A DNA stretch of 36,685 bases. Source: Actinomycetota bacterium. GTDB lineage: Bacteria > Actinomycetota > Actinomycetes > Actinomycetales > Microbacteriaceae. Each line of letters starts with the position of its first letter. Positions within the stretch are counted from its first letter, which is position 1. The stretch covers positions 1-36,685 of the forward strand of contig WLPL01000005.1 in assembly GCA_009698805.1 (NCBI GenBank), given 5' to 3'. Position numbers and translations under genes: made by a program. Positions 14,527 through 17,769 of the stretch are shown here, piece by piece. The notes below the pieces were generated by a model. The model had not been told where the DNA came from, ran no database searches, and was given only the letters and a program-made list of their open reading frames with translations.

Positions 14527-15543
14527 TTAGAGATTACCCGCCGTAGCAAGTGAGCTCATCAAGCGTCTAAGCGAATCCAGACGCATTGCCGAAACAGCGC
14601 CACCGGCCACGGCTTCATCGAGTGCGCAGTCTGGTGAACCCTCGAGGTGGCTGCAGTCGCGGGGGCATTCCTCGGCGAGGCGGCTTAGGTCCTCGAACGA
14701 CTTGAGTAGGTTTTCTGGCTTCACGTGCCCAAGGCCGAATGAGCGCACACCCGGGGTGTCGATGATCCAACCCTCGGGGAGCTTTATTGCGCGTGCCGAA
14801 GAGGACGTGTGTCGCCCGCGGCCGGTGACCTCGTTGACCACACCGGTGGCCCTGAACGTGCCTGGAACCAAGTCATTCACCAGTGTGGACTTTCCAACGC
14901 CTGAGTGGCCGACCATGACGGTCATGTTGTTGGCGAGTAAAGCGTGGACGGCTTCGAGGTTTGGCGAATCCGAACGGGTTTCGACCACGGGAATGCTAAG
15001 GCCTTCAAAGTTTTTCAAGAATTCTTCGGTCGAGGCCAGATCGGTTTTTGTGATGATCAAAATCGGTTTCAAGCCAGCATCGAAGGCTGCCGCAAGGTAG
15101 CGGTCGACCAGTCGCGTTCGTGGCTCCGGGTTCGCAATGGCCACGACGATTGCCATCTGGGTCGCGTTTGCCACGATCACACGCTCGACCTGGTCGCTGT
15201 CGTCAGCGCTTCTGCGCAGCAACGATGTGCGCGGTTCTACTCGAACGATTCGCGAAAGCGCGCCTTGAGTGTCTGAGGTGTCGCCAGCTAGGGCCACTCG
15301 ATCTCCCACCACGGCGCCGTCCTTGCGCAACTCTTTACCCATAGTTGCCATGACGCTGCGGTCGTCTTCTAGTAGGACGTGATATCGACCCAAGTCGACA
15401 CCCGTCACCATTCCGACCAGTGCGTCCTTGTAACTAGGTCGGTTTTTGGTTCGAGGCTTGTTGCCCTTGGGGTTTGGGCGAATCCGAACATCGGTCTCGT
15501 CGAGGTCGTGCCCGCCGTCTTCCGGCTCGTAAAGCCAACTCAC
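14527..15543 (-). CDS. rsgA: Ribosome small-subunit biogenesis GTPase
   Basis: Circularly permuted GTPase: ITKTDL, GHSGVGKSTLVNDLV, DTPGVRSFGL, Cys/His cluster ECPRDCSHLEGSPDCAL; GTG start at 15543 overlaps the aroA stop. Confidence 0.93.
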   Translation of the reverse strand: MSWLYEPEDGGHDLDETDVRIRPNPKGNKPRTKNRPSYKDALVGMVTGVDLGRYHVLLEDDRSVMATMGKELRKDGAVVGDRVALAGDTSDTQGALSRIVRVEPRTSLLRRSADDSDQVERVIVANATQMAIVVAIANPEPRTRLVDRYLAAAFDAGLKPILIITKTDLASTEEFLKNFEGLSIPVVETRSDSPNLEAVHALLANNMTVMVGHSGVGKSTLVNDLVPGTFRATGVVNEVTGRGRHTSSSARAIKLPEGWIIDTPGVRSFGLGHVKPENLLKSFEDLSRLAEECPRDCSHLEGSPDCALDEAVAGGAVSAMRLDSLRRLMSSLATAGNL

Positions 15544-16829
15544 TTTTGGCCCAGCATCGCGAGCCAAAGTTGCGTGAAATTCGGCATGGTCTTCGCCGTC
15601 GTACCGATGTTTTCGATTTCGATGCCGGGCACCCGCAAGCCAATGATTGCACCGGTGGTAGCCATGCGGTGATCCTCGTAGGTTTGCCACAGGCCACCGT
15701 GAAGTTTGTTAGAAGGCCGAATGATTAGCCCGTCCTCGGTTTCTTCACAGTCGCCGCCGATTCGATTTATTTCGGTGGCGAGGGCCGAGAGCCTGTCGGT
15801 TTCGTGACCGCGCAAGTGGGCGATGCCTCGAAGGCGACTCGGGGTGGTCGCGAGGGTAGCCAAACCGGCTATGACCGGAGCGAGTTCGCCGCCGATCGAT
15901 AGGTCGATGTCCACGCCTAGGATTTCACCGTTGCTGGTGAGGGTCAGCCCGTGGACGTCCCTCGAAATCTGAGCGCCCAGCTGCTGCAGGATTCCGTCGA
16001 ATTCGTCGCCGACCTGAGTGGTTTTAGTTGGCCAACCTGGAATCCTGACGCTGCCGCCAGCGACCATCGCGGCAGCCAGGAAGGGCCCGGCGTTTGAGAG
16101 GTCCGGCTCGATTGACTTGGTGCCGCCCGAGATTGCACCGGGTTCGACCCGCCAAACCAGCGGTTCGGGCTCAGAAACGCTGATTCCGCGCTCTCTGAGG
16201 CATTGCAGAGTCATTTCGATGTGCGGCATAGACGGCAGGTGTTCGCCCCTGTGACGCAGGGTGATGCCGTTTTCGAAGCGCGGTGCGGCAAGTAGCAGAC
16301 CAGAGACGAACTGACTCGAGCTGGACGCATCGATGGTGATTTCGCCACCCGAAACCGCGCCCAGTCCGTGCACTTCGAAAGGTAGTGCGCCGTCTTGATT
16401 CTCGACCACCGCACCGAGAGCTCGAAGGCTGTCGATGGTGGTTTTCATCGGGCGTCGCCTGGCGGCTTCGTCCCCGTCAAATTTTGTGATTCCTCGGTTC
16501 AAAACCGATACCGGGGGAACAAATCGCATCACGGTTCCAGCGAGTCCACAGTCAATCGTTGCATCTGCGGAAAGCGTGGCCGGGTGAACGGTTGGGCTTG
16601 TGCGGTTTGCATCGTCAACCTTGGCGCCAAGTTGCTGGAGTGCAGCGATCATTAGTGCGCTGTCTCTCGAAACCAGGGCTCCGGTAAGTTGGGTGAGCTC
16701 GATTGCTAGCGCCGAAAGCACCAGTTCGCGGTTCGTCAGCGATTTTGAGCCAGGTAACTCAACCGACGCGTTGATAGCGCCACTGGCCAAGGGGGCATCC
16801 AGGTTGTGGGAATAAAGGTCTGAACTCAT
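15540..16829 (-). CDS. aroA: 3-phosphoshikimate 1-carboxyvinyltransferase
   Basis: LPGSKSLTNRELVLSALA, DCGLAGTVMRFVPP, DASSSSQFVSGLLLAAP, LRGHETDRLSALATEINRIGG, EDHRMAT. Confidence 0.95.
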   Translation of the reverse strand: MSSDLYSHNLDAPLASGAINASVELPGSKSLTNRELVLSALAIELTQLTGALVSRDSALMIAALQQLGAKVDDANRTSPTVHPATLSADATIDCGLAGTVMRFVPPVSVLNRGITKFDGDEAARRRPMKTTIDSLRALGAVVENQDGALPFEVHGLGAVSGGEITIDASSSSQFVSGLLLAAPRFENGITLRHRGEHLPSMPHIEMTLQCLRERGISVSEPEPLVWRVEPGAISGGTKSIEPDLSNAGPFLAAAMVAGGSVRIPGWPTKTTQVGDEFDGILQQLGAQISRDVHGLTLTSNGEILGVDIDLSIGGELAPVIAGLATLATTPSRLRGIAHLRGHETDRLSALATEINRIGGDCEETEDGLIIRPSNKLHGGLWQTYEDHRMATTGAIIGLRVPGIEIENIGTTAKTMPNFTQLWLAMLGQK

Positions 16830-16834
16830 GTGTT
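16808..16834 (+). promoter_or_regulatory. Putative SigR/SigH-type ECF promoter GGGAAT-N18-GTT
   Basis: GGGAAT at 16808-16813, 18-nt spacer, GTT at 16832-16834; directly upstream of the SigR-like gene. Confidence 0.7.
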
Positions 16835-16837
16835 ACA

Positions 16838-16843
16838 AAATTA
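16838..16843 (-). promoter_or_regulatory. Putative -10 element TAATTT of aroA, 8 nt before its ATG
   Basis: On the minus strand TAATTT-tgtaacac-ATG. Confidence 0.35.
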
Positions 16844-16864
16844 CCAGCAACGAGAAGGAGCCAC

Positions 16865-17515
16865 TTGACCATTACTTTGGGGTTTTACGATTCGGCCATA
16901 GACTTTGGCTTGATGAGTGAAGAAGTAACACCGCTAGATGCCGAAGCAAAGCGTATCCAGTTTGAGGAGCAGGCCATGCCTCTAACGCCATACCTGTACG
17001 CAGCCGCTCTAAAAAATACCAGGGGAAACTACTACGACGCCGAAGACCTGGTTCAAGAAACCTTCATAAAGGCCTTCAAGGCCTGGCACCAGTTTGAGCA
17101 AGGCACCGAGCTGAAAAGCTGGCTCTCAACCATTTTGAAAAACACTTTCATCAACAAGTACAACAAGAAGATGAAAGACAAGGCCGTCGGAGGCCTAGAC
17201 GACCTCGAAGACTGGCAGTTGGGCTCCGCCGAGAGCATGAGCGCTGTCAAGGAGCTTTCGGCAGAGGTCGAATCGCTCAAAGCTCTTTCATCAAAAGAAG
17301 TCAATGCCGCGATGCGCGCACTTAGCCCCGAATTTCGTTCGGTGGTCTTCATGGCGATCGTCGAGCAGCTTTCGTACGCCGAAATAGCCGAACAACTGGA
17401 CGTTCCAATCGGCACCGTGATGAGCCGCCTGCACCGAGGCAAGGCAAAGCTACGCAAACTGTTAGCGGAATTCGCTAAATCAGAGGGGTACAACGTGGAA
17501 GGCGAAGAGTCATGA
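16865..17515 (+). CDS. sigR: ECF sigma factor, SigR/SigH/RpoE-like
   Basis: YYDAEDLVQETFIKAFKAWHQFEQGTELKSWLSTILKNTFINKYNKK; SYAEIAEQLDVPIGTVMSRLHRGKAKLRKLL; TTG start with SD aaggag, alternative ATG at 16913. Confidence 0.9.
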   Translation: MTITLGFYDSAIDFGLMSEEVTPLDAEAKRIQFEEQAMPLTPYLYAAALKNTRGNYYDAEDLVQETFIKAFKAWHQFEQGTELKSWLSTILKNTFINKYNKKMKDKAVGGLDDLEDWQLGSAESMSAVKELSAEVESLKALSSKEVNAAMRALSPEFRSVVFMAIVEQLSYAEIAEQLDVPIGTVMSRLHRGKAKLRKLLAEFAKSEGYNVEGEES

Positions 17516-17769
17516 CCGAAAAGGTAATGAACTGCGAAGAAACCAAACGGCACGTTCACGAGTATCTGCAGAAAGAGCTGAGCGAGGCCGAGCTAGAGTC
17601 GATCACCACTCACATCGCCAACTGCGACCACTGCGAGTGGGAGTATGACTTTGAGGCCGCCCTCAACCGAACAATTCAGATGTCTTGCACCGAAACGCCG
17701 GCCGAGGAGATCGCCGAAAAGATTCTCGAGCGAATTCGTTCAATCGACCTAAACGACATTCAGCACTAG
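17512..17769 (+). CDS. rsrA: Zinc-binding anti-sigma factor, RsrA/RshA-like
   Basis: C8 plus H34-x3-C38-x2-C41, the same spacing as the RsrA Cys11/His37/Cys41/Cys44 set; overlaps the sigma gene by 4 nt. Confidence 0.88.
   Translation: MTEKVMNCEETKRHVHEYLQKELSEAELESITTHIANCDHCEWEYDFEAALNRTIQMSCTETPAEEIAEKILERIRSIDLNDIQH

Follow-up and report, generated by a model that had tools for sequence, protein, structure and literature searches.

The aroA and sigR genes stand back to back in a contig of a Microbacteriaceae bacterium (WLPL01000005.1; the whole stretch of 36,685 nucleotides that was analysed is called the window here), and the place where they meet raises the question of whether the start of a core biosynthetic gene also serves as the promoter of a stress sigma factor. 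When RsrA is oxidised it releases SigR, and SigR then transcribes the operon that encodes it. The initial annotation had placed a SigR consensus promoter across the aroA start codon and -10 region, ahead of a gene pair described as a SigR-like ECF sigma factor and an RsrA-like anti-sigma factor. From sequence comparison, we consider this site to be the SigR-dependent, autoregulatory promoter of sigR-rsrA, a counterpart of sigRp2, embedded in aroA and mutually exclusive with the aroA promoter, and we put the probability of this reading at about 85%.

The site and the genes on either side

The product of aroA is EPSP synthase (TIGR01356: 360.7 bits, cut-off 287). The sigR product contains PF04542 and PF08281 (ECF regions 2 and 4); its best NCBIfam match is actinobacterial SigH (TIGR02947) at 197.8 bits, below the cut-off of 251.55, and its best PDB match is M. 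tuberculosis SigH (5zx2, E value 2.5e-48). RsrA is the best match of the adjacent product (TIGR03988, 51.9 bits, below the cut-off of 62.5), which keeps the HxxxCxxC zinc motif (His34, Cys38 and Cys41) and the upstream cysteine (Cys8). In each case the family named is the best by far, and the scores point to a divergent branch; the cut-offs serve automatic naming and are not a measure of function. The identities first proposed for the pair are borne out by best matches and expected domains, though under the curated cut-offs.

The letters of the site can be read directly. GGGAAT and GTT are separated by exactly 18 nt, the ATG of aroA falls inside that spacer, and TAATTT precedes the ATG on the opposite strand, letter for letter as first described (Table 1). 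Sites used exclusively by SigH in C. glutamicum have the consensus GGAAT-N18-19-GTT, SigE sites having a C in place of a T (PMC10012870), and the match to this consensus identifies the site as one of the SigR/SigH kind. Counting the motif was uninformative: the window holds 1 match where shuffles give 0.92, and the genome holds 19 matches compared with 12 for the reversed control pattern (30 versus 12 for GGAAT-N18-GTT), the other genomic matches of the motif lying mostly inside reading frames. Since the count is near chance in the window and weak in the genome, it was dropped as evidence, and position and conservation carry the case.

Table 1. Features of the aroA/sigR region, in window coordinates
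Feature	Position	Strand	Remarks
aroA, 3-phosphoshikimate 1-carboxyvinyltransferase	15540..16829	-	ATG 16829-16827; PF00275; TIGR01356
SigR-type promoter -35, GGGAAT (putative sigRp2 counterpart)	16808..16813	+	reads as aroA codons 6-7 (TAT TCC, Tyr-Ser) on the opposite strand
SigR-type promoter -10, GTT	16832..16834	+	in 131/134 loci picked by GGAAT at -20 only
aroA predicted leaderless-type promoter -10, TAATTT (TANNNT type)	16838..16843	-	8 nt before ATG
Shine-Dalgarno-like AAGGAG for the long SigR' start	16855..16860	+	SD-led in-frame upstream starts in 107/134 site loci
sigR long frame (SigR'), TTG start, 16-residue extension	16865..17515	+	expected product of the SigR-dependent transcript
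sigR p1 -10, TAGACT, predicted leaderless-type housekeeping promoter	16899..16904	+	TANNNT conserved in 172/174 loci
sigR short isoform, ATG, MSEEVTPLD...	16913..17515	+	ECF sigma, SigR/SigH type
rsrA, zinc-binding anti-sigma factor	17512..17769	+	ATGA overlap with sigR; zf-HC2; HIANCDHC motif

Conservation and the codons of aroA

The sigR loci of relatives, of the family and of the order were gathered and duplicates removed. A divergent aroA lies upstream of sigR in 174 loci, 162 of which were treated as Microbacteriaceae. The initial annotation had named beforehand, as grounds for refuting the site, its absence where the sigR-aroA arrangement is conserved; GGAAT-N17/18-GTT is kept across the aroA start, its register unchanged, in 131 of these 162 non-identical Microbacteriaceae loci, which span dozens of genera, and this conservation supports the claim of a SigR/SigH-type site ahead of sigR-rsrA. 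A further 8 of the 162 have a relocated site or a spacer of 19 (GGAAT-N17..19-GTT upstream of sigR). In a non-circular test, 134 loci were picked solely for a GTT lying 1-2 bases behind an in-frame aroA start, and GGAAT starts exactly 20 nt inside aroA in 131 of them; reciprocal selection on GGAAT found GTT in 131/134. The spacing in relatives is 17, 18 or, once, 19 (locus L181, where the overlap is kept), and the length always differs ahead of the aroA ATG, outside the coding sequence. The 13 nt of spacer that lie inside aroA are near-random in sequence, and the motif columns approach 2 bits. A chance match in AT-richer DNA would agree with the near-chance count in the window and the weak excess in the genome, but it is refuted by the 131 conserved loci, and we allow it next to no probability. 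The SigR-type site over the aroA start is real.

Judged from codon usage, the promoter -35 constrains aroA codons 6 and 7 as NAT-TCC, and so imposes two residues on AroA. Codon 7 is TCC in 131 of the 134 GTT-anchored loci and codon 6 is TAT (116), AAT (8) or CAT (8), with Ser7 present in 132 of the proteins and Tyr6 in 116. These frequencies are also what one would expect if Tyr-Ser were kept for AroA function and GGAAT were its by-product. The codons argue against this, since Tyr6 is TAT in 116/116 whereas Tyr14 of the same proteins is TAC in 56/60 (raw counts, kinship ignored), and residue 6 alternates between Tyr, Asn and His while the DNA stays constant. Among aroA genes with GC3 >0.8, codon 6 ends in T in 78/78, compared with 425/3617 such codons in the rest of the genes (kinship again ignored); this subset was picked on GGAAT, so that the GTT-anchored Tyr6/Tyr14 count is the unbiased one. 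Because the codon counts ignore kinship, relocated sites serve as the control. The AroA proteins of loci with a relocated site begin MAISKIAQP, MFVARNNAQ, MGIINQLDP, MALSRIAKP, MLVGKMNPG and MTAYAAPLA, with no Tyr-Ser at positions 6-7, and those of the Aquiluna clade, where the site was lost, begin MTSLHPYWP, MIEFPAWPAP and so on, the Tyr-Ser likewise gone. GGAAT moreover co-occurs with GTT, which lies outside the coding sequence. The codon and relocation evidence together rule out the protein-level explanation, which we regard as extremely improbable.

Two predicted sigR starts, the regulon and known systems

The initial annotation had started sigR at a TTG about 30 nt past the GTT. A TTG is indeed found 30 nt after it, but it is not the sole start: TANNNT-N6..9-ATG/GTG occurs in frame at sigR in 172/174 loci (spacer 8 in most, TAGACT in 83), and this conserved, TANNNT-led ATG besides the TTG means that sigR has two starts. 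Neither the second promoter, p1 (TAGACT-N8-ATG), nor the layout of a long and a short isoform appeared in the earlier description, which likewise did not mention the dual-coding constraint on AroA or that trxB and msrA of the window's genus have no such site upstream. The SigR-dependent transcript would be translated from the TTG to give the longer SigR', and p1 would give a leaderless transcript and the short SigR from the ATG. Loci with the site have an open frame upstream of the short start in 130/130 cases, and loci without it in 12/19 (Fisher p 1.8e-7; kinship ignored). As 26 of the 130 have no obvious SD-led upstream start, SigR' is not certain everywhere. A pattern [VIL][LM][ED]x[PR] is often seen near the start of the SigR' extension (40/102 versus 1.6 in shuffles; for example L102, L109 and L177) and is a candidate recognition tag for proteolysis; it is not evident in the extension of the window's own SigR'.

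The -10 of aroA is of the same predicted type as p1. TANNNT lies 6-9 nt before the aroA ATG in 131/131 overlapping loci, and almost none occur at other spacers, so the first description of an aroA -10 overlapping the SigR-type site extends to every one of these loci. TANNNT is the known form of leaderless actinobacterial promoters (PMC3898074), and the same element 6-9 nt before the start of aroA and of short sigR shows no difference in kind, the leaderless character being predicted here from sequence.

The layout resembles sigRp2/sigRp1 of S. coelicolor. In Streptomyces, p1 yields the short SigR and the SigR-dependent p2 yields a longer, unstable SigR' (PMC5472188, PMC4921905), which is a Clp substrate (PMC5472188). 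Shared with that system are a SigR-dependent autoregulatory promoter upstream and a housekeeping promoter downstream (both predicted here), a longer in-frame protein from the upstream promoter and the ATGA overlap of sigR and rsrA (PMC5472188, PMC4921905). The differences are that p2 of S. coelicolor is not described as covering an aroA start, that the SigR' extension has 55-58 residues in Streptomyces compared with 16 here (mostly 9-52 in relatives), and that the short SigR starts at GTC in Streptomyces and at a leaderless-type ATG here. The SigH-RshA system of C. glutamicum shares the GGAAT-N18-19-GTT consensus (PMC10012870, PMC3489674) and a zinc anti-sigma factor; there, however, the four sigH promoters look like housekeeping promoters and a SigH-dependent one lies ahead of rshA (PMC3489674), whereas here the SigH-type site precedes sigR.

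A conjugation switch of pLS20 reportedly uses overlapping divergent promoters. Common to that type and the present locus are opposite-strand core promoters that share bases and should exclude each other; unlike it, one promoter here is of the kind served by an ECF sigma factor, with its -35 falling among the codons of a core biosynthetic gene, and the arrangement is conserved across a family. A search of the open-access literature found no account of a sigR-aroA promoter overlap and no transcript data or start-site map for any member of the Microbacteriaceae. The promoter type and the feedback system are known, and as far as the open-access literature shows the arrangement was previously unreported.

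GGAAT-N18-GTT lies upstream of trxB in 3/3 and of msrA in 2/3 large-genome Microbacteriaceae, and no site was found upstream of either gene in the window's genus (0/5 each), where trxB and msrA were rejected as SigR targets and the regulon is reduced or different. The mycothiol ligase MshC scored over its cut-off in 2/3 of the large-genome relatives, and the four genomes searched from the window's genus (G000, G006, G008 and G017) gave no such hit, which suggests that SigR works without mycothiol there. The genus thus apparently has an RsrA/SigR system with neither mycothiol nor the usual thioredoxin target.

Three further sites were seen at other genes. A SigR-type site precedes ribD and the likely FMN riboswitch ahead of it in 10/17 genomes of the genus, including that of the window, and in 0/11 outside it (L250, L296-L311), and SigR control of riboflavin synthesis is possible. 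Another precedes a nitroreductase-like gene by a few bases in 6/18 same-genus sequences, from the window's genome and its nearest relatives (L252, L276-L280); like ribD, this gene is a possible regulon member. At L248, GGAAT-N18-GTT overlaps the leaderless-type TAGACT start of a menG/ubiE-like methyltransferase gene on the same strand, possibly a second case of promoter overlap.

A putative promoter overlapping aroA, and its history

By coordinates the two core promoters overlap, the SigR elements occupying 16808-16834 and the aroA -10 and ATG lying at 16838-16843 and 16829. In Microbacteriaceae the putative SigR promoter is embedded with its -35 in aroA codons 6-7, the aroA start codon in its spacer, and its -10 and start region coinciding with the -10 of the predicted aroA leaderless promoter. 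Once RsrA is oxidised and SigR released, the RNA polymerase carrying SigR would initiate at about 16842, within the aroA -10. The SigR and housekeeping polymerases would need to melt the same ~12 bp, and since both open complexes need these bases the promoters should exclude each other. We infer that the start points of aroA and sigRp2, recognition by SigR and mutual exclusion are probably as described. Free SigR would then raise sigR-rsrA and lower aroA initiation in proportion to occupancy by SigR-polymerase, and at rest the housekeeping polymerase on aroA would help to hold the SigR promoter inactive. The geometry makes it likely that aroA would be repressed under stress, as the initial annotation proposed, and that earlier interpretation as a whole is partly supported.

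The overlap is peculiar to the Microbacteriaceae among the genomes sampled, since in the outgroup families aroA is not adjacent; most of these have a p2-like site 50-390 nt upstream of sigR. The overlap prevails on an AroA tree made with FastTree; relocations are scattered over it, about six of them independent, and the site was lost once by a whole clade (16 Aquiluna-type loci) and singly in a few cases. The relocated sites lie in the intergenic region (L107, L108, L120, L156, L158, L190 and L210), and these loci are natural controls for the overlap. In the Aquiluna clade (loss loci L057, L059-L065, L071-L076, L078, L095, L099 and L100) the SigR site and the AroA Tyr-Ser were lost together and the leaderless-type promoters of aroA and sigR remain; the sigR feedback has apparently been given up there. 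The aroA gene keeps its own -10 where the site was lost or moved. The starts of aroA and short sigR are between 57 and 231 bp apart, so it is not for lack of room that the overlap exists, and the relocations and the Aquiluna loss mean that it is not obligatory. The overlap is old but dispensable.

Why it has lasted can be read in more than one way. The SigR promoter may be real and its position over aroA a historical accident, with aroA output barely changing under stress, and to this we give even odds. With the -35 in coding sequence and the spacing limited to 17-19, the promoter would be locked to aroA whether useful or not, and a locked register says nothing about aroA regulation. The register is indeed constant within the coding sequence, and variation of one or two bases is confined to the non-coding side, as frame and spacing demand; about six independent relocations and a clade-wide loss have been tolerated, and aroA kept its own -10 through them. 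Against an accident stand the persistence of the overlap in 131/162 loci despite room to move, and the rarity of separation on the tree. Selection could instead keep the overlap if occlusion under thiol stress lowered aroA together with rsgA and a HisN-like phosphatase gene, which lie behind it, and if the aroA polymerase restrained the sigR promoter at rest. The complete overlap of the core promoters in all 131 overlapping loci and its long persistence across the family would fit; the independent separations, the clade-wide loss and the lack of any known reason for a thiol-stressed cell to turn down the shikimate pathway do not, and we think such selection unlikely. The relocations and the Aquiluna loss fit a frozen overlap as well as they fit a selected switch. 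The fullest version, a two-way switch across the family in which free SigR shuts the leaderless aroA promoter and amplifies itself, aroA transcription sets the threshold of the SigR loop, and the switch is written into AroA as the promoter-imposed Tyr-Ser, is doubtful.

The Microbacteriaceae are soil and freshwater actinobacteria, and in almost the whole family the putative sigR promoter lies over the aroA start. The locus offers a concrete case, open to experiment, of an alternative sigma factor whose own promoter should repress a housekeeping metabolic gene through the overlap itself, no repressor being needed. It also presents a promoter element that dictates codons, and the residues they encode, in the gene next to it throughout the family, with the separations and losses as controls provided by nature. 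The Streptomyces p1/p2 scheme with two sigR isoforms is indicated across the Microbacteriaceae, and loss of the feedback promoter is indicated in the Aquiluna clade. Annotation of sigR in this family may pick the wrong start, and the TTG at 16865 taken alone misses the short isoform.
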